A DNA stretch of 23,190 nt. Origin: a virus. A program made the translations under genes and the position numbers. The notes under the pieces were generated by a model. It searched no databases. It had not been told where the DNA came from and saw only the letters and a list, made by a program, of their open reading frames with translations. The stretch lies in the IMG/VR virus record IMGVR_UViG_3300032820_000127, positions 1 through 23,190 of that record; one strand, 5' to 3'. Of the stretch, positions 8,670-16,842 are shown one piece after another (positions within the stretch are counted from its first letter, which is position 1; every line of letters begins with the position of its first letter).

Positions 8670-10375
8670 TATATTTTGAGAATTTAGGATGGAAAAATTT
8701 CTTATCAACAGGTAGGGAATGGACTAATCTGGATTTAAGTCAGAATCCAGCAACATTGATTATAGGGGAAAATGGTTCAGGAAAGTCCACCATGTTAGAT
8801 GCACTTACTTTTGCTTTGTATGGTAGACCTTTCCGAAAAATCAACAAGCCTCAGTTAGTCAATTCTGTTAATAAGAGAGATTGTGTGGTTCAAGTAGAAT
8901 TTAGAGTTGGGGGTACTCTTTATACTGTTCGTCGGGGTATGAATCCGTCATTGTTTGAGATTTATGTACGTGGTAAATTATTAGATCAAGATGCTAAGAT
9001 GAGGGATTATCAGGAGCGATTGGAGAAGAATATTCTCAAAATCAACTATAAATCTTTTACTCAGATTATTGTATTGGGGTCTAGTACATTCTTACCTTTT
9101 ATGAAGTTGAATCCTGCTCATCGTAGAGAAGTGATTGAAGATTTGTTAGAGATTGAAGTATTTTCTTTGATGAATAATCTGCTTCGGGTAAGAATGGCTG
9201 AGAATCAATCGCTACTTTCTGAAAATAATATAGCTTCTACACTGGTGCAGGAAAAAATTTCCCTGCAGGAAAAATATATTCGTGAGGTAGAAGAAATCAA
9301 AAATGACAAGATTGTAGAAACGGAAAAAAGTTTAGAGGAAAATCGTAAGAAGTTAGTTGCTAATGAGTCTAGGGTAAAGGATTTGTTAGAGGATCAGGAT
9401 ATGTTACAGACTTTCTTGGAAGAAAGAGCTCAGATGATTACTGATTACAATATGTTTCAGGGCCTTAAAACCAAGATTGACGATAGAGTTCGCAAGATAA
9501 AAGATGAAGTTTCGTCATATAGGGATATGGGTATCTGTGGAGTATGTAAGCAAGAAGTGAGTGATGATCATAAACATGAAATTATAAATGAGAAATCTGC
9601 AGAAATATTAGAATGTGAGGAAGGTGTTATTCAGCTAGATGATACTTTATCAGCTATCAAAGAGTCGATAGAGGAATTTGACAAGTATAAGGAATTGTCT
9701 GACGCTGTAGATGAGGAAGTAAAAAAGTTGGATAATGAATCAGATTCCGTTAGAAAGTATATTGATATGCTGATTCGTGATATTGAATATTTGGGTAAGG
9801 TTCGGAATAGAGCGGGTCAGGATCAGGAGAAGCTTCAAGGGTATCGGGGCCAATTGATGGCCCGTGATAGTGAATTGTTTGAATTGAGGGATTCTAAACA
9901 GTACTTGAACGTTGCTTCTGATATGTTGAAGGATACTGGAATCAAGACTTTGATTGTAAAGCAGTATTTACCTATTATGAACAAGCTAATCAATAAGTAT
10001 CTGACAGATATGGATTCCTATTTTGATTTTCACTTAGATGAGAGTTTTAATGAGGTGATTAGAGCTAATTTTAGAGATACCTTTACCTATGATTCATTCA
10101 GTGAAGGTGAGAAAATGAGGATAGATTTAGCTTTATTATTCACCTGGCGTGCTATCGCGAAGATGAAAAATAGTGCTAATACTAACCTGTTGATCTTGGA
10201 TGAGGTTTTTGACAGCTCTCTGGATACTAATGGAACAGAGGAATTTTTGAAGATTCTGCAAGGTATGGGATCTAGTAATGTGTTTATCATATCTCATAAA
10301 GGTGATACCTTGAACGAGAAGTTTGATGATGTAATAAAATTTGAAAAAGTGAAGAATTTTAGCAAGGTGGTGTGA
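8666..10375 (+). CDS. 46: Recombination ATPase subunit gp46 (Rad50/SbcC-like)
   Basis: SMC-like ATPase subunit partnering gp47. The Walker A GENGSGKST (34-42) is at the N-terminus. A long coiled-coil region contains the zinc-hook CGVC (Cys291, Cys294). The ABC signature FSEGEKMR lies at about 477-484 and the Walker B LLILDEVFD at about 508-516, both in the C-terminal lobe. It is 569 aa against 560 in T4, with the short coiled coil typical of phage Rad50 homologues. All catalytic elements are present. The HNH endonuclease gene follows 2 nt after its stop. Confidence 0.97.
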   Translation: MIYFENLGWKNFLSTGREWTNLDLSQNPATLIIGENGSGKSTMLDALTFALYGRPFRKINKPQLVNSVNKRDCVVQVEFRVGGTLYTVRRGMNPSLFEIYVRGKLLDQDAKMRDYQERLEKNILKINYKSFTQIIVLGSSTFLPFMKLNPAHRREVIEDLLEIEVFSLMNNLLRVRMAENQSLLSENNIASTLVQEKISLQEKYIREVEEIKNDKIVETEKSLEENRKKLVANESRVKDLLEDQDMLQTFLEERAQMITDYNMFQGLKTKIDDRVRKIKDEVSSYRDMGICGVCKQEVSDDHKHEIINEKSAEILECEEGVIQLDDTLSAIKESIEEFDKYKELSDAVDEEVKKLDNESDSVRKYIDMLIRDIEYLGKVRNRAGQDQEKLQGYRGQLMARDSELFELRDSKQYLNVASDMLKDTGIKTLIVKQYLPIMNKLINKYLTDMDSYFDFHLDESFNEVIRANFRDTFTYDSFSEGEKMRIDLALLFTWRAIAKMKNSANTNLLILDEVFDSSLDTNGTEEFLKILQGMGSSNVFIISHKGDTLNEKFDDVIKFEKVKNFSKVV

Positions 10376-10377
10376 TA

Positions 10378-10776
10378 ATGAATAAAACGATGAGGGCACA
10401 GGAGAGTAGAGAATTTTTACAAGAAAAATTAGATTTTATAGATACAATTATGTCTAGGCCGTATAGTCGGATGGATGCGAAGCAATGGAGAGGAATATTT
10501 CATACTTTTATTGATAGAAGAAATTCTTTAAAATCATCTGAACAAAAAGTATTGGGTCATCATAGATGGAGATGGAAACAGAGGTATGATAACTCTCATA
10601 TTTGGAAGGGTGTTAGAGAAAACTTTCTTTTATCTGTGGATAATGTTTGTTATAAATGTGATGGTGTTGCTATACAGGTACATCATCTATCATATGATAG
10701 AGTTGGTGGAAAAGAAATTCCAGAAGATTTAATGGCAGTATGTATACCATGTCATGGTAGAGAACATGGATATTAA
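10378..10776 (+). CDS. HNH endonuclease, free-standing
   Basis: A small nuclease of 132 aa with a zinc-stabilised HNH domain at its C-terminus: CYKC (Cys91, Cys94), VHHLSYDR (His102, His103), then CIPCH (Cys122, Cys125, His126). The N-terminal half is helical and basic (HHRWRWKQRYD) and may bind DNA. ATG 10378 is chosen over the GTG at 10372, because AAGGTGG (10364-10370) is then well spaced. T4-like phages carry many free-standing HNH homing endonucleases between core genes. This one sits exactly at the left edge of the accessory insertion between genes 46 and 45, so it may be a homing endonuclease that helped this junction vary. A general phage HNH nuclease is the alternative. Confidence 0.88.
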   Translation: MNKTMRAQESREFLQEKLDFIDTIMSRPYSRMDAKQWRGIFHTFIDRRNSLKSSEQKVLGHHRWRWKQRYDNSHIWKGVRENFLLSVDNVCYKCDGVAIQVHHLSYDRVGGKEIPEDLMAVCIPCHGREHGY

Positions 10777-10797: not shown

Positions 10798-10827
10798 TTG
10801 ACTTTGCCTAGGTATAAATGGTATAAT
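10798..10827 (+). promoter_or_regulatory. Sigma70-like promoter P1 of the modification cassette
   Basis: TTGACT (10798-10803), 18-bp spacer, TATAAT (10822-10827), with an extended -10 TG at 10819-10820. This is a near-consensus host-type early promoter in the 255-nt gap after the HNH gene. It gives a leader of about 200 nt before the 216-aa gene. Architecture and surrounding bases closely match promoter P2 before gene 45 (shared ATGGTATAATATAGT). Confidence 0.85.
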
Positions 10828-10944: not shown

Positions 10945-11031
10945 GAAGGACATTTGAACTTTTCTATAAACCAGATCAGGTTTTACACTTGATCGTAATA
11001 GTTACAAAAAATACTTTAAGAGGTATTCACG

Positions 11032-11682
11032 TTGACATTTCAAATTGAAGAATGTTCGATAACAGAATTAAGTTTAGATAATTTTATTTCAGATCCGTTG
11101 AACCGTGTTCCAACACCTATACCAGAGGTATGTTTTAAAAAATATGGTGCTGAACAGATTAGAATTGAGGGTAATGGTGGAATAAAATTTAACAGCTCTA
11201 TAGCGTCTCAATCGAATGATAAGGGTTTGGTGGACACGTCACCAAATAAACCGCCGGTATTAGTTTATACTGTGAAACATAATGGTAAGGCATATGTTAT
11301 AATCGGTAACGATGAAGATATTCCTGATATGTTTCCTTCTATGATACGGTATGAAGCTAAAAAGGAGCTTGTGAGGTTAGCAGGTGGCCCTGATACGGAG
11401 ATCTGGTATCACCCGTATAAATCAAGTGGAAAATATGAAAAGGTTAATTCTGTTTCGTTAGATATAATCGACAGGGTTAATGTTAGCAGACCAGCACAGG
11501 AGCCATGGGGATGTGAATGGATACATCCAATAGATGATGGTTCTTCTGTTGTCCGTGTTAAAGAAACCACTATATGGAGTAGTAATGGTAAGCCTCGCAA
11601 AAACGAAACTTTAGTTTTTGTATCTCCGAAGAAAGTTATCAAGTTTGTTGGTGGTAAGGTAATAGGTTTTAGAGTCGCTTAG
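11032..11682 (+). CDS. Unknown 216-aa protein, first gene of the cassette
   Basis: I do not recognise this protein. It is mixed alpha/beta with no membrane segment, Cys cluster or obvious catalytic motif. The second half has beta-like segments (VRVKETTIWSS, ETLVFVSPKKVIKFVGGKVIGFRV) and a Trp-rich patch (EPWGCEWIHP). No ATG fits. The TTG at 11032 is preceded by AAGAGGT (11018-11024) at good spacing, and an in-frame TAA lies just upstream at 11017-11019, so TTG is the start. It ends 15 nt before the methyltransferase gene and shares its promoter, so a role in DNA modification (specificity, recruitment or protection) is possible but is inferred from position only. Confidence 0.75.
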   Translation: MTFQIEECSITELSLDNFISDPLNRVPTPIPEVCFKKYGAEQIRIEGNGGIKFNSSIASQSNDKGLVDTSPNKPPVLVYTVKHNGKAYVIIGNDEDIPDMFPSMIRYEAKKELVRLAGGPDTEIWYHPYKSSGKYEKVNSVSLDIIDRVNVSRPAQEPWGCEWIHPIDDGSSVVRVKETTIWSSNGKPRKNETLVFVSPKKVIKFVGGKVIGFRVA

Positions 11683-11697
11683 TCTGATAGATCACAT

Positions 11698-12795
11698 ATG
11701 TATAATAACTATACGTTAGCAGACGTGAAAGAATCTGCTGAAAGGAAACTTTTCACAGTATTTTCAACCTTCGCAGGTGGTGGTGGAAGCTCCACCGGCT
11801 ATAAATTAGCCGGTGGAGATGTCCGCGGAGTATTGGAATTTCAAAAAGTCGGTATTAGAACCTATCTACAGAATTATCCCAAAACCAAATTTTTCTGTAA
11901 GGATATTCGTAATGTAACAGGTCAACAAGTATTGGATCGGTTGAGAATGCAACCAGAAGAATTGGATATTTTTGATGGTTCACCACCGTGCCCTCCCTTT
12001 TCGATGTCTGGCTCTAAACGTAAGGGCTGGAATAAAACCAAAACTGTATACGGAAAGAAGCAGACTAACATAGAAGATTTGTCATTTGATATGGCTAGAT
12101 TGGTTGGAGTAGTTCGCCCTAAAATAGTTATATATGAAAATGTCAAAGGGTTGACTATGGAATATGCTGCAGATCATTTTAAGAAAATTGTTAATGCATT
12201 TGAGGAACATGGTTATCAAAGTGTAAATCAAGTCTTGAATGCTAATAATTATGGAGTTCCACAAGGTAGGGAACGGGTATTCATGATCGGGGTTAGGGAT
12301 GATATATTACCTCATGGATTAGCATTAAGTTGGGCTTTTCCTACTCCTACAGAGAGTAGACCTACTATGAGAGATGCTATTGGTGATATGATGGAAGATG
12401 ATGAAAATTTAAAAGAACACGAAGAAATAATGGAGGCGATGAAGAAACAGAAAAGATGGGAGTACTTTAAAACAATGCCGTTAGATGTTAAAAAATACGT
12501 TTCCTATGGAGACTATAATCCAAAAGGTTCTGGTTTTCAAGCACGTAGGGTGCCTTGGGATAAACCATCACATACATTAACCGAAAGAGGTTTACAGTTA
12601 GGTACTTGTGCACATTTACATCCTGGCGAACATCGTGGTTTTACTCCGTTGGAAGCTAGGAGAATAATGTCATTACCATCTGATTATCATTTGGATGGTA
12701 ATATAAACGAAAGATTAGCTAGAATTGGATTAATGGTAGCTCCATTACAGATGAAAGCTTTAGCAGAAAATGTTTATAGGGAGTATTTGAGTTAA
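11698..12795 (+). CDS. C5-cytosine DNA methyltransferase
   Basis: Transfers a methyl group from S-adenosylmethionine to C5 of cytosine in DNA. Family motifs appear in order: I, STFAGGGGSSTGYKLAGG (23-40, AdoMet site); IV, DGSPPCPPFS (93-102, catalytic Cys98); VI, YENVKGL (Glu147); VIII, NNYGVPQGRERVFMIG (QxRxR-like, 189-193). A target-recognition region follows (about 200-300), then GFTPLEARRIMSLP and a C-terminal motif X region IGLMVAPLQMKALAENV. At 365 aa it is full length with all catalytic residues. No good ribosome site is visible before the ATG, 15 nt after the previous stop. No restriction endonuclease gene is adjacent. The next gene overlaps its stop and encodes a TET-like dioxygenase, so its product is probably an intermediate, not the final mark. 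The target sequence cannot be read from the protein. Confidence 0.95.
   Translation: MYNNYTLADVKESAERKLFTVFSTFAGGGGSSTGYKLAGGDVRGVLEFQKVGIRTYLQNYPKTKFFCKDIRNVTGQQVLDRLRMQPEELDIFDGSPPCPPFSMSGSKRKGWNKTKTVYGKKQTNIEDLSFDMARLVGVVRPKIVIYENVKGLTMEYAADHFKKIVNAFEEHGYQSVNQVLNANNYGVPQGRERVFMIGVRDDILPHGLALSWAFPTPTESRPTMRDAIGDMMEDDENLKEHEEIMEAMKKQKRWEYFKTMPLDVKKYVSYGDYNPKGSGFQARRVPWDKPSHTLTERGLQLGTCAHLHPGEHRGFTPLEARRIMSLPSDYHLDGNINERLARIGLMVAPLQMKALAENVYREYLS
11790..11818 (+). repeat. 12-bp inverted repeat inside methyltransferase motif I
   Basis: Arms CTCCACCGGCTA (11790-11801) and TAGCCGGTGGAG (11807-11818) are perfectly complementary around a 5-nt loop TAAAT. An alternative hairpin, GGTGGA/TCCACC (11782-11787 with 11791-11796), would compete with the left arm. 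It is GC-rich within an AT-rich gene. It encodes part of the conserved AdoMet motif but uses synonymous choices that make the arms match. Confidence 0.75.
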
Positions 12796-13775
12796 TGCGT
12801 GAAGAGAAATTTCCAGAATTGATGTCGTTTGAGAAATCAAAAGAATTACTTGGTGAATGGCCAGATCCTAGTCATATAAAACACTGGATAGAATCTGACG
12901 AAGATGTCGTAATCTATAAAGATGTAGGAAGTTTGTTTGATAATCCTATTTTAGGTGGTCTTAAAAAGAGAGTATATCAAGATCAGAGTGGTGGTAAGTA
13001 TGATGAAATAAAGGATTGCCTTCTCAGTATTGATGAAACGACTACCATGAGGGCTAATTGTGCCGGCCCTATTGATACAGAAGAATTGGACAAACAAGGT
13101 ATTAAATATGAATTACGAACCAAAAATTCATATAAGACATTAGATTCCAAGGGTAAAATTAGTATGATTGCTCACGGAAATCCTATTCATTCTGTGATGA
13201 TGGGTTATAAACGTGGTCGATTTACAGGTAAGATTGATAAATCTGGTTGGAGTAAACATAATCCAGAGAAAAATGAAATATTAAGTCAGATTCCACAGAT
13301 TAATGATATAGGGTATAGAGAATTGGCACCTACCTATTACGAAGCACAAAAAAACTTTGCTGAAACTTCTGTAGAAGAAGAATATCGTATTGCGGGTGGA
13401 ATTTACACCACATTATCGGCAAATAAATACAATCAAGGTGGCTCACCGGCGATGTCTTATCATATAGATTCAGGTGATCTACCAGAAGGGTTGACCACTA
13501 TTGCAAATTTTCATGATGGTGATGTAAAAACATATTTTGTGTTACCTAGATTTGGAGTAGCTATAGCTCGTGGTGATGGTGATGTATTCATTGGAGATAG
13601 TGGAGAAGTTCATGGAATTATTGAAGTTGAAGGATCTGGAACTTCTATGAATTGTGTATGTTATTGTGACACAAGATTGGCTACTTTGGGTAATAGGGGG
13701 AAACCTGAAAAATTAATTGGTAAACAGGCTAGAGAAGATGAAAAATCTGGTAGTCTGGAAGGACTTTGGGTATAA
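12795..13775 (+). CDS. TET/JBP-like 2-oxoglutarate/Fe(II) dioxygenase (predicted 5mC hydroxylase)
   Basis: Predicted to oxidise 5-methylcytosine in DNA to 5-hydroxymethylcytosine using Fe(II), O2 and 2-oxoglutarate. The C-terminal half carries the double-stranded beta-helix pattern of the TET/JBP family: a conserved Asn (SANKYNQGG, Asn209), the iron ligands HID (His223, Asp225), a FxxG...LP strand pair (ANFHDGDVKTYFVLPRFG), GDGDVFIGD, and the distal ligand His273 in EVHGI. Arg294 (DTRLA) is the candidate 2-oxoglutarate salt-bridge residue. The N-terminal ~190 residues are not recognised and may bind DNA. Its ATG overlaps the methyltransferase stop (TAATG), indicating coupled translation. Phage TET proteins working with a neighbouring C5 methyltransferase are established in the literature, and this pair fits that. 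Another DNA or protein 2-OG oxygenase is the alternative. Confidence 0.78.
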   Translation: MREEKFPELMSFEKSKELLGEWPDPSHIKHWIESDEDVVIYKDVGSLFDNPILGGLKKRVYQDQSGGKYDEIKDCLLSIDETTTMRANCAGPIDTEELDKQGIKYELRTKNSYKTLDSKGKISMIAHGNPIHSVMMGYKRGRFTGKIDKSGWSKHNPEKNEILSQIPQINDIGYRELAPTYYEAQKNFAETSVEEEYRIAGGIYTTLSANKYNQGGSPAMSYHIDSGDLPEGLTTIANFHDGDVKTYFVLPRFGVAIARGDGDVFIGDSGEVHGIIEVEGSGTSMNCVCYCDTRLATLGNRGKPEKLIGKQAREDEKSGSLEGLWV

Positions 13776-14986
13776 TGGTTAATTTGAAGAATATTTACGC
13801 TATGGAAAATCTGCGTATTTGTTTTGATTTAGACAATACGTTGGTTACGTTTCCAAAAGTAGATGGTGATTATAGTACAGTAGAACCGATACAGGATAAT
13901 ATAGACGCTGTTAAATTTTTGTATAATATGGGTCATTATATAATCATTTATACAGCTCGTAGAATGAGAACTCATGATGGTGATGTAGAAAAGGTTATAG
14001 CAGATATTGGAGAAATAACTGAAGCAAAAATAAAGGAATTTGGAATTCCTTATCATGAATTGATTTATGGTAAACCGTATGCACACTATTATATTGATGA
14101 TTTATCTTTAAATCCTTATGAAATTGATATTAGTGCTGAATTGGGGTTGGATGTAGTTCAGCCTAGAAAATTCAATAATATAGTATATGAGAATGGTAAG
14201 GTCATAAAATCTGCTATTGGAGATTCTGCTAGAAAATCGTTGGAAGGTGAAAAGTATTGGTACGAAACCATACCAGAAGGACTGGAAGATTTATTTCCTA
14301 ATTTTTTATCATCTGAAAATGGTACGATAGAAATAGAGAAAATAAAAGGCACAACATTTACTCATTTGTTGTTGGACGATGTTTTAACTGATAATCATTT
14401 TTTTATTTTATTGGAAGCTATCGAAAGAATACATGGTACTAGGGATAATGATATATATCAGGGAGGCCCTAGTATATATCATAATTACAATAAGAAAGTA
14501 ATAGATAGATTTATGGGGTATGATTATTCTAGGTTTAGGGATAGTACAGATGTATGTAGAAAAATAATCAATAAAGTTAAGGAATATGAATCAGCTGATT
14601 TAGGTCTTAGAGCAATAATACATGGTGATCCAGTTTTTAGTAATGTTCTATTAACATCTAATACAACTATTAAGCTTATAGATATGAGAGGTGAAATTGG
14701 TGGTCGTTTAACAAAAGTAGGTGATATATTTTATGATTATGCTAAAATTTATCAATCATTGGTTGGATATGATCGTATTTTGGTACAGAATCAAGCACCT
14801 CGTTTAGTTGATCAATCTCTATTGAAAAATGTGTTTGAGGAAATTTTTATATCAAAATTTGGAATTGATATGTTAGAGTATTTGAAATACTTGACAGCTA
14901 GTTTGTTTTTCTCGCTGATACCGTTACACGATAATGATAAATGTGAGAAATTTTATAACTGTATATTTGATTTGATAGGTGAATAA
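13775..14986 (+). CDS. HAD phosphatase fused to APH-like kinase
   Basis: A two-domain protein of 403 aa. Residues about 12-125 are a HAD phosphatase close to those in capsule gene clusters: CFDLDNTLVTFP (Asp18, Asp20), DYSTVEPIQ, IIIYTARRMRTH (Thr60), GKPYAHYYIDDL (Lys100, Asp108, Asp109). Residues about 135-400 look like an aminoglycoside/choline-kinase-type phosphotransferase: IHGDPVFSNVLL (catalytic-loop Asp285, Asn290) and LIDMRG (metal-binding Asp303). The N-lobe ATP-binding Lys is not obvious to me. ATG 13775 overlaps the dioxygenase stop (TAATG); a TTG at 13766 also exists. The next gene is a TagD-like cytidylyltransferase, so I infer it prepares a phosphorylated small molecule for activation. 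Direct phosphorylation of the hydroxymethyl group on DNA by the kinase domain is the alternative. Confidence 0.82.
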   Translation: MVNLKNIYAMENLRICFDLDNTLVTFPKVDGDYSTVEPIQDNIDAVKFLYNMGHYIIIYTARRMRTHDGDVEKVIADIGEITEAKIKEFGIPYHELIYGKPYAHYYIDDLSLNPYEIDISAELGLDVVQPRKFNNIVYENGKVIKSAIGDSARKSLEGEKYWYETIPEGLEDLFPNFLSSENGTIEIEKIKGTTFTHLLLDDVLTDNHFFILLEAIERIHGTRDNDIYQGGPSIYHNYNKKVIDRFMGYDYSRFRDSTDVCRKIINKVKEYESADLGLRAIIHGDPVFSNVLLTSNTTIKLIDMRGEIGGRLTKVGDIFYDYAKIYQSLVGYDRILVQNQAPRLVDQSLLKNVFEEIFISKFGIDMLEYLKYLTASLFFSLIPLHDNDKCEKFYNCIFDLIGE

Positions 14987-15429
14987 TGTCTTTTAAACAT
15001 TTAGGGTCGATGGAAGAGGCCAGGCGTCAGGATAGTGTAATAGGATTTACCTGTTCTACGTTTGATTTACTTCATGCAGGACATATTTCTATGTTGGCTG
15101 AGGCTAGTTCAGTTTGTGATTATTTGGTAGTGGGTCTATTATCAGATCCCACTATCTCTCGCGGAGAGAAAAAGAATAAACCAGTTCAGTCTATGTTTGA
15201 AAGATGGTGCCAATTACAAGCTACTTCTTATGTAGATTTAATTATTCCGTTTGAAACAGAACAGGAAATTATAGAGATAGTTAAGATAATTCAGCCTGAT
15301 ATTAGAATAGTGGGCGAGGATTATAAGGATAAAGAATTTACAGGTGATTATCTTTGTGATATACATTATAATCGCCGGCGACATGGATTTTCTAGTACTG
15401 AATTGATAGGAAGGATAAAGAATGGCTAA
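14986..15429 (+). CDS. TagD-like cytidylyltransferase
   Basis: A nucleotidyltransferase of 147 aa in the glycerol-3-phosphate/ethanolamine-phosphate cytidylyltransferase family, which makes CDP-alcohols from CTP and a phosphorylated alcohol. It shows TFDLLHAGHISML (HxGH motif, His30 and His33), RWCQLQATSYVDLIIPF (the substrate-side region), RIVGEDY and HGFSSTELI (134-141, in place of the usual RTxGISTT nucleotide motif). The size fits TagD (about 130 aa). ATG 14986 overlaps the previous stop (TAATG). Next to a kinase/phosphatase fusion and a transferase, it probably forms the activated donor of the cassette. Whether the nucleotide is CTP and the substrate glycerol phosphate or another phosphate ester cannot be decided from the motifs. 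Confidence 0.88.
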   Translation: MSFKHLGSMEEARRQDSVIGFTCSTFDLLHAGHISMLAEASSVCDYLVVGLLSDPTISRGEKKNKPVQSMFERWCQLQATSYVDLIIPFETEQEIIEIVKIIQPDIRIVGEDYKDKEFTGDYLCDIHYNRRRHGFSSTELIGRIKNG

Positions 15430-16807
15430 TATATTGTATGCTAAGATCGGTTTGAAATTACCTAAGAAAATGTGGGGTGGCACTCAAGATGGTTCTGGTT
15501 GGTCGTTGGGTCACGATGATGATGTCAGATTCCTGATAAATGTGTCTTACAACAATCCAGACGATAATTTTTACATTATTGGAGCTTCTAGTTTTGATGA
15601 GATAGAAACTGAAGAAAAGAAAAGATTGTTTCCACATGAAAATGTGTTTGATGCGTATAATTTTACTAAGTATAGTAAAGAAAATAGACCTAGTGAGGAC
15701 ATTTATAAGCCACATCCAGATAATGGATTTACAAAACCAGATTTGTTTGGAGATAGTGTATTAAAATGGAAAAATTGGGATACTGAAAATATACGATATG
15801 TGATTCCATTAGAATATTTGAACGAGAATAATATAATTGTAGATTATGGAATTATTGCAATGAGCAATATAATGCAGAGAAACCTTTATCAGAAGACTAA
15901 GACTAAGAAGGGAGGCTGGGCTAAACCTCTAGCTGTTGGTAGAAATTATGCAGCTCCTGTTATTCACACGTTGAATGAAACGGGTGTGAGGTGGGTTGCA
16001 ATGGTTGATGATCCAAGATGCATGCATGGTGCTTTTGATTTGTTTAATAATCCACCAATAGTCTTATCACAGATAAATGGCAGTATGACTACTTCAAATA
16101 TAACATCTTATGAAAATGATACGGTAGCCGAAGGCGAAGTAGATGTTATATATGCTCATGTCGAAAGTACTGTGGTGATGGATGAAAAGGTTAAATATGT
16201 AGATTCGTCTTGGTCTGATAGAGAAAATCTGATAAGTATTGCATTGAATGGTGGTTCTAATGATGAAGAAAAGGATTCAGTATTAGTAAAAGAGGTAGAT
16301 AATAGGTTCGGAATGCTAGAGGAATGGTTGTTAAATCCATTTCCAAATGTAGAGGTATATGGAAAGTGGGGAGATGTAATATTAGCTAGTGATAGTAGGT
16401 TTATGGGGTCTGTAGATCGTGACGAATTACATTCGGTGATGTCTAATTGGAACCATAGCCTTTGTATTCCAATTAAGGATGGGTGGGCGACTACTAAGTA
16501 TTTGGAATGTTTGAAATCTGGTGTTTCGCCGTTCTTACATCCGAATTATGATTCAGACAAGAATACTAAGATACAGGATTTTTATCGTGTAGAAAATGTT
16601 GAGGAATTTCGTGATAAATTAAATTTAGATGATGTTATTCACACAAGGGAATTGAATAAGGCAATCGATGCCTGTTTAGCTGATGAATTTACATCAGGTC
16701 AATATTTGAATGATACGGTATATAAACATTTGGGTATTGACAGAAAAGGCAGAAAAAACAAGAATCGGGAGTTATGGGAAGTTAAGTCTTCTACGGTTAC
16801 TTTTTAA
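15422..16807 (+). CDS. GT-B-like transferase (predicted DNA-modifying glycosyl- or related transferase)
   Basis: A 461-aa protein, the last gene of the cassette, overlapping the cytidylyltransferase by 8 nt behind a GGAAGGA site. I read it as a GT-B-type glycosyltransferase. It opens with a Rossmann-like strand (NILYAKIGLKLP). The C-terminal half has a VEVYGKWGD segment followed by NHSLCIPIKDGWATTKYLECLKSG and SPFLHPNYD, which resembles the nucleotide-donor-binding K..E.L..G..P region of GT-B enzymes. The assignment is from pattern only, and I see no close match to T4 alpha- or beta-glucosyltransferase. In context, the acceptor is predicted to be 5-hydroxymethylcytosine in phage DNA. A role in surface-glycan modification cannot be excluded. 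Confidence 0.55.
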   Translation: MANILYAKIGLKLPKKMWGGTQDGSGWSLGHDDDVRFLINVSYNNPDDNFYIIGASSFDEIETEEKKRLFPHENVFDAYNFTKYSKENRPSEDIYKPHPDNGFTKPDLFGDSVLKWKNWDTENIRYVIPLEYLNENNIIVDYGIIAMSNIMQRNLYQKTKTKKGGWAKPLAVGRNYAAPVIHTLNETGVRWVAMVDDPRCMHGAFDLFNNPPIVLSQINGSMTTSNITSYENDTVAEGEVDVIYAHVESTVVMDEKVKYVDSSWSDRENLISIALNGGSNDEEKDSVLVKEVDNRFGMLEEWLLNPFPNVEVYGKWGDVILASDSRFMGSVDRDELHSVMSNWNHSLCIPIKDGWATTKYLECLKSGVSPFLHPNYDSDKNTKIQDFYRVENVEEFRDKLNLDDVIHTRELNKAIDACLADEFTSGQYLNDTVYKHLGIDRKGRKNKNRELWEVKSSTVTF

Positions 16808-16812
16808 TAGCC

Positions 16813-16842
16813 TTGACATTAGGTTATTAAATATGGTATAAT
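16813..16842 (+). promoter_or_regulatory. Sigma70-like promoter P2 before gene 45
   Basis: TTGACA (16813-16818), 18-bp spacer, TATAAT (16837-16842), with an extended -10 TG at 16834-16835. It starts 5 nt after the cassette's last stop and gives a leader of about 35 nt for gene 45. It matches P1 in spacer length, extended -10, and the bases around and after the -10, including a similar AGAGAAA(A)AGGA ribosome-site region. Confidence 0.88.

Follow-up and report, generated by a model that had tools for sequence, protein, structure and literature searches.

This study concerns a run of five adjoining genes, a putative cytosine-hypermodification unit, in a 23,190-nt stretch of DNA from a marine virus (positions 1-23,190 of record IMGVR_UViG_3300032820_000127; this whole stretch is referred to as the window). 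The window is a T4-like contig whose recognisable open reading frames (ORFs) presumably encode capsid, tail tube, UvsW, gp55, gp47/46, clamp, clamp loader, Hsp20 and DNA polymerase. The five genes occupy positions 11698-16807, all on the plus strand, between gp46/HNH and gp45, and are annotated as follows:

11698-12795, plus strand: DNA cytosine-5 methyltransferase (PF00145) with SPPC nucleophile motif, ENV and QGRER; a relative of CmoX with Leu at the CmoX Arg350 position.
12795-13775, plus strand: TET-family Fe(II)/2-oxoglutarate dioxygenase with H223, D225 and H273; R259; S284 at the usual Arg position.
13775-14986, plus strand: fusion of a HAD phosphatase (approximately 13814-14126) and an APH-type kinase (approximately 14153-14957), with intact motifs.
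14986-15429, plus strand: HIGH-superfamily nucleotidyltransferase of the HldE-C/TagD type with HAGH and SSTELI motifs; predicted donor-activating step.
15422-16807, plus strand: GT-B glycosyltransferase, by its predicted fold a structural relative of the T4 DNA beta-glucosyltransferase.

The junction sequences bear out the five successive, overlapping genes described in an earlier note on this DNA: the first three overlaps measure 1 nt each and read TAATG, while the fourth and fifth genes overlap by 8 nt at ATGGCTAA. The third gene begins with the ATG at 13775, the automatic ORF call starting 9 nt earlier at a TTG (13766). The same gene set had been proposed as a search target in other phages. 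The order from dioxygenase to glycosyltransferase is repeated in an independent contig, L013 (loci and contigs of the compared phages carry L numbers), whose nucleotidyltransferase and glycosyltransferase are 53% and 42% identical to those of the window, and the same set stands behind a methyltransferase-TET pair in L120, with one additional gene between. This recurrence indicates that the arrangement did not arise by chance.

The product of the first gene matches PF00145 with an E-value of 1e-48 (166.9 bits against a cut-off of 22) and contains the PC nucleophile, ENV and QxRxR motifs, in agreement with its earlier assignment as a C5 methyltransferase. Among solved proteins, its nearest relative is the CmoX enzyme from Synechococcus phage S-B43 (8yf3, 6.7e-78), which shares the SPPC motif and belongs to a system that likewise writes its mark on finished DNA. 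CmoX is a carboxymethyltransferase acting in GC, in which Arg350 binds the carboxymethyl group and is required (PMC12783734). This kinship could mean that the window enzyme produces 5-carboxymethylcytosine, to be tailored by the other genes, but Leu stands at the Arg350 position in the window enzyme and in all 60 TET-partnered methyltransferases examined; in 33 distant homologues without a TET gene nearby the residue is Gln. Moreover, it is hard to see how the TET and beta-glucosyltransferase-like enzymes, which here replace the CmoA and CmoY of S-B43, could act on a carboxymethyl group, and the ORF list of the window showed no apparent CmoA, although no profile search for it was made. A CmoX identity was dropped as highly improbable and, because Arg350 is replaced by Leu, the window enzyme is read as an ordinary S-adenosylmethionine-dependent methyltransferase. 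Specificity for the GpC context is possible and weakly suggested by a GpC odds ratio of 0.80 in the window and a mean of 0.79 in 55 TET loci versus 1.06 in 31 loci with a thymidylate-synthase (TS)-family gene, a difference confounded with lineage and host.

Assignment of the second gene to the TET/JBP family was only partly reproduced by profile search, since its product scores 31.7 bits (E-value of 1e-7) against the Pfam Tet_JBP model and just misses the curated cut-off of 34.9. Most of its close relatives score above this cut-off, so its descent is not in doubt. The AlphaFold model (predicted local distance difference test score, pLDDT, of 89) has as its best PDB match human TET2 (Z 21.0, root-mean-square deviation of 3.6 Å, 259 residues aligned), followed by NgTet1 (18.6), CMD1 and CcTet, with AlkB types lower at Z of about 14; a profile of the TET alignment (A5) found no match among PDB sequences. 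The predicted structure confirms a genuine TET relative, its double-stranded beta-helix resembling those of TET enzymes most. The Fe(II)-binding triad HxD...H (H223, D225, H273) is invariant in all 73 relatives compared.

The fifth protein has no Pfam match. As PF09198, the N-terminal domain of the T4 beta-glucosyltransferase, is among the families not matched, the protein is classed as a structural relative of that family and not as a member. Its predicted model (pLDDT 83) has the T4 DNA beta-glucosyltransferase as the best PDB fold (Z 22.3, 310 residues aligned), ahead of the next family (18.3) and the T4 alpha-glucosyltransferase (16.4). The earlier description of a GT-B-like transferase is thus upheld, and on this model the fold is clearly closest to the T4 DNA beta-glucosyltransferase. 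A profile built from seven diverse relatives finds the T4 enzyme with an E-value of 1e-5, everything else scoring 0.25 or higher, and the family-invariant residues Arg295 and Glu362 align in the region of Arg191/195 and Glu272 of the T4 protein. By analogy of fold, the window enzyme would transfer a sugar to 5-hydroxymethylcytosine (5hmC) in DNA. The RB69 proteins ORF050c and ORF003c did not match profiles of the window transferase and were ruled out as its relatives.

The family of this transferase was surveyed in 50 deduplicated loci. A TS-family gene lies near the transferase in 32 of them and a TET gene instead in 5, the two never occurring together; a gp42-type or TET gene is linked to the family in 37 of the 50. 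The 32 linked TS-family genes, classed as dCMP-hydroxymethylase-type, all encode Asp where TS has Asn, and 29 of them share motifs and 44-59% identity with T4 gp42, versus 24-30% identity to RB69 ORF048; the gp42-type assignment covers these 29 loci, the remaining three being L028, L029 and L031. In view of this identity and these motifs, 5-hydroxycytosine of the RB69 type is not favoured as the acceptor of the family. The complete genomes of the TET phages Melnitz and DLP_6 contain no PF00303 (thymidylate-synthase-family) gene, whereas in three large contigs bearing the gp42-type module two PF00303 genes are present and TET is lacking. In the sister phage L009 a T4-type alpha-glucosyltransferase (PF11440, 8e-28) directly follows the methyltransferase-TET pair at 10957-12132, as it does in L008 (2352-3527) and L010. 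The slot after TET in L011 (555-1466) holds a protein of GT9-like look, as far as visual inspection of its motif shows; GT8 or TAGT (PF20691, the TET-associated glycosyltransferase family of Pfam) is present in other TET loci. Both the gp42-type or TET linkage and the alpha-glucosyltransferase in the same slot of sister phages point to 5hmC as the acceptor. Together with the TET and beta-glucosyltransferase-like folds and the lack of a TS-family gene in Melnitz and DLP_6, they support the order put forward in the earlier note, in which cytosine in finished DNA passes through 5-methylcytosine (5mC) and 5hmC to a conjugated base.

Some further observations were made in these loci. Among cultured relatives, the Melnitz phages carry methyltransferase-TET, and Pseudoalteromonas phage XG4 carries the transferase together with the donor module. 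In most phages that have the gp42-type module, a distant homologue of the C5 methyltransferase is also encoded close to the transferase (L015 11257-12477, L020 11259-12476, L002 5363-6580), and its residue corresponding to CmoX Arg350 is Gln. In many loci, such as L001 7557-8090 and L050 8520-9092, a P-loop nucleotide kinase (cluster of 25) is encoded no more than a few genes away from TET; it matches PF18751 in L050 and weakly in Melnitz (L001). This position suggests a kinase-based tailoring route on 5hmC. In Caulobacter phage Cr30 (L005 7419-8747, 12711-13892), some 4 kb separate a TET relative from a gene for inositol-1-phosphate synthase, and a nucleotidyltransferase of the HldE type is encoded at another place, a gene set that possibly yields a different conjugate.

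The two genes between the dioxygenase and the transferase appear to supply the donor. The third gene is indeed a HAD/APH fusion, its HAD part matching TIGR01689 (EcbF-BcbF) at 4.6e-14 and its kinase part giving a weak APH match, with the catalytic motifs of both (DxDxT, T, K, DD; HGDxxxxN / ID) intact. The fourth protein matches PF01467 at 1.1e-12 and, best, the HldE C-terminal domain model at 3.7e-26; the name cytidylyltransferase given to it earlier holds for the family, while the nucleotide used could be ATP or CTP. Among the 50 transferase loci, HAD is present in 46 and APH in 45, and the nucleotidyltransferase is of the HIGH type in 18 and of the NTP_transferase type in 27, in no case both. 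On the transferase tree the nucleotidyltransferase type changes at least six times and the hydroxymethyl source at least twice, and the window falls in one clade (100/100) with 4 of the 5 TET-linked rows. Since two unrelated enzymes alternate in one slot, they would do the same job, sugar-phosphate activation, and the gene distribution gives good evidence for a single interchangeable step.

A donor of another kind, an activated polyol or alcohol resembling CDP-glycerol, would make the final base a phosphodiester conjugate of 5hmC and not a glycoside. The fourth protein also matches TagD (7e-15) and ethanolamine-phosphate cytidylyltransferase (8e-18), and choline kinases are found among APH-type kinases; yet the HldE C-terminal model scores higher, the enzymes that repeatedly replace the HIGH type in the same module are of a kind typical of sugar-1-phosphates, and the transferase folds like sugar transferases. 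This alternative is considered unlikely. A sugar donor would follow the logic of the ADP-heptose pathway (HldE/GmhB), with kinase, HAD phosphatase and HIGH-type nucleotidyltransferase, except that the window kinase is APH-type and not PfkB-type.

The donor enzymes had been called capsule-type. The TIGR01689 match agrees with this as a remote clue, but the closest system in kind is the arabinosylation cluster of RB69 and other Mosigvirus phages (PMC6024577, PMC13390438), in which a HAD protein and, within ORF053_052c, the kinase half are homologous to the HAD and APH parts of the window protein and would share with them a role in sugar activation. In RB69 the NTP_transferase is fused to the kinase, whereas the window has a HIGH-type enzyme (both alternate among relatives), the isomerase is separate and the transferase ORF003c is unrelated by profile. 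Arabinose is attached there to 5-hydroxycytosine (PMC13390438), for which a different TS homologue, ORF048, would be the synthase. The arabinose cluster also includes ORF050c (L027 493-1662), a PF01136 U32 protein. The U32 family contains enzymes that 5-hydroxylate RNA pyrimidines, and ORF050c might take part in making 5-hydroxycytosine.

The closest cellular relative of the HAD-APH protein, at 41% identity, comes from Pelagibacteraceae and combines NTP_transferase, HAD and APH in one protein. In a metagenome-assembled genome of that family this fusion is located near a glycosyltransferase, which, with the capsule-like TIGR01689 match, would fit a role of the donor and transferase genes in building or altering a glycan on the host surface, as a means of superinfection exclusion, the methyltransferase-TET pair being a mere neighbour. 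However, the transferase fold is closest to the T4 beta-glucosyltransferase, its family is tied to gp42-type or TET genes, the genes overlap, and their slot is shared with a DNA alpha-glucosyltransferase, so that this explanation appears quite improbable. A search of bacterial HAD-APH homologues for a hint of the sugar did not reveal it. The best guess is a pentose, as hinted by the RB69 homology, or a heptose, as hinted by the likeness to HldE.

Leaving the sugar aside, the unit probably carries out post-replicative hypermodification of cytosine in four steps, and this reading is held with fairly good confidence. The methyltransferase would methylate cytosines in phage DNA, perhaps in the GpC context, and the TET-family dioxygenase would convert 5mC to 5hmC. 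In parallel, the APH-type kinase and the HAD phosphatase would produce a sugar-1-phosphate from a sugar phosphate of the host, and the nucleotidyltransferase would then make a nucleoside diphosphate sugar from it, a route known from ADP-heptose synthesis and probably also followed by the RB69 cluster. Finally, the beta-glucosyltransferase-like GT-B enzyme would place the sugar on the hydroxyl of 5hmC. The scheme rests on the order and families of the genes, on the folds and conserved catalytic motifs of their products, and on the linkage seen across many phages; each reaction, and the action of the kinase before the phosphatase, is inferred from these.

Several observations weigh against this scheme. 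The Arg of the last core strand that usually binds 2-oxoglutarate is kept in 68 of the 73 TET relatives and is Ser284 in the window. The loss is confined to the window and L008-L011, and the same five sequences, and no others of the 73, gain Arg259, which lies 25 residues earlier on another core strand of the predicted structure. Arg259 looks like a compensatory, relocated 2-oxoglutarate anchor; the five sequences share one ancestor, however, so the exchange happened once. The absence of the usual Arg lowers the claim of TET activity and not that of TET descent. The TET of this lineage could be dead or altered, leaving DNA with 5mC or another oxidation product while the sugar genes act elsewhere or decay. 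The same clade nevertheless keeps an alpha-glucosyltransferase directly downstream (L008-L010), Arg259 occurs in exactly the sequences that lack the usual Arg, and the ratio of nonsynonymous to synonymous substitution rates is about 0.09 (synonymous sites being saturated), so a TET under such strong purifying selection is unlikely to be dead; the explanation as a whole is given little credence. The profile match of the transferase to the T4 beta-glucosyltransferase varies with the alignment, weakening to an E-value of 0.002 with the combined alignment and being lost with the larger alignment A4 (39 closer rows), and its kinship to that enzyme therefore rests mainly on the fold. The contig covers 23 kb, and a near-identical record extends to 28 kb, so that a gp42 gene elsewhere in the phage is possible. 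A sugar isomerase is absent from the five-gene unit, and none of the loci showed an SIS-type arabinose-5-phosphate isomerase next to the transferase, the contigs being partial and hosts perhaps supplying the enzyme.

Methyltransferase-TET hypermodification is established in phages, and clusters of this kind were reportedly described by Burke et al. in PNAS in 2021. As in those clusters, a C5 methyltransferase here adjoins TET and is followed by tailoring transferases, with oxidation predicted on the polymer; the window differs in having a beta-glucosyltransferase relative with its own kinase, phosphatase and nucleotidyltransferase route to the donor, and a TET with an apparently displaced 2-oxoglutarate Arg. 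With T4, which uses gp42 and beta- and alpha-glucosyltransferases, the window would share the 5hmC acceptor and a GT-B enzyme of beta-glucosyltransferase fold. It differs in that methyltransferase and TET would make the hydroxymethyl group on DNA, whereas T4 makes it on dCMP, in a donor apparently other than host UDP-glucose, and in the unmatched PF09198.

Additional features surround the five genes:

10798-10827, plus strand: promoter-like site TTGACT-18-TATAAT, its -10 extended by TG, ahead of the unit; a consensus match only.
11032-11682, plus strand: orphan, family-less protein of 216 aa, between this promoter and the methyltransferase.
16813-16842, plus strand: promoter-like site TTGACA-18-TATAAT, 12/12 with extended -10, at the head of the following unit (gp45); a consensus match.

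The two sites are exact matches to extended -10 sigma-70 promoters and flank the unit on both sides. Since they bracket the whole stretch, the 216-aa gene is probably co-transcribed with the five others, and the unit as first described would have a sixth gene. Searches of its product against Pfam, PHROG and NCBIfam and by tblastn gave no match. An HNH endonuclease gene (PF01844) lies directly upstream of the unit at 10372-10776. Searches of the window found neither an Rfam RNA nor a tRNA.

The limited literature available yielded no description of a beta-glucosyltransferase-like family with its own interchangeable donor pathway, of its pairing with either gp42-type or methyltransferase-TET chemistry, or of a displaced TET arginine. 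A beta-glucosyltransferase-like enzyme combined with its own donor pathway after methyltransferase-TET looks like a new combination of parts. More tentatively, and with somewhat less than even confidence, a phage-made sugar other than that of UDP-glucose would be placed by this enzyme on 5hmC, formed after replication, at sites chosen by the methyltransferase, by a TET in which the 2-oxoglutarate Arg now sits on a different strand; the product would be a glycosyl-5hmC, such as a pentosyl or heptosyl form, that has yet to be described from DNA. Judging from T4 and RB69, the modification would probably serve to shield phage DNA from restriction or CRISPR nucleases.

These data present phage DNA modification as a set of separable modules: one that writes the hydroxymethyl group (gp42-type, or methyltransferase and TET), one that makes the donor (HAD, APH kinase and either of two unrelated nucleotidyltransferases), and the transferase. 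The donor and transferase module occurs with both routes to 5hmC and thereby provides testable predictions for dozens of environmental phages. These phages may supply DNA glycosyltransferases that use new donors and would be of value for 5hmC labelling, and the TET enzyme of the window may represent a case in which the cofactor site has been rewired.

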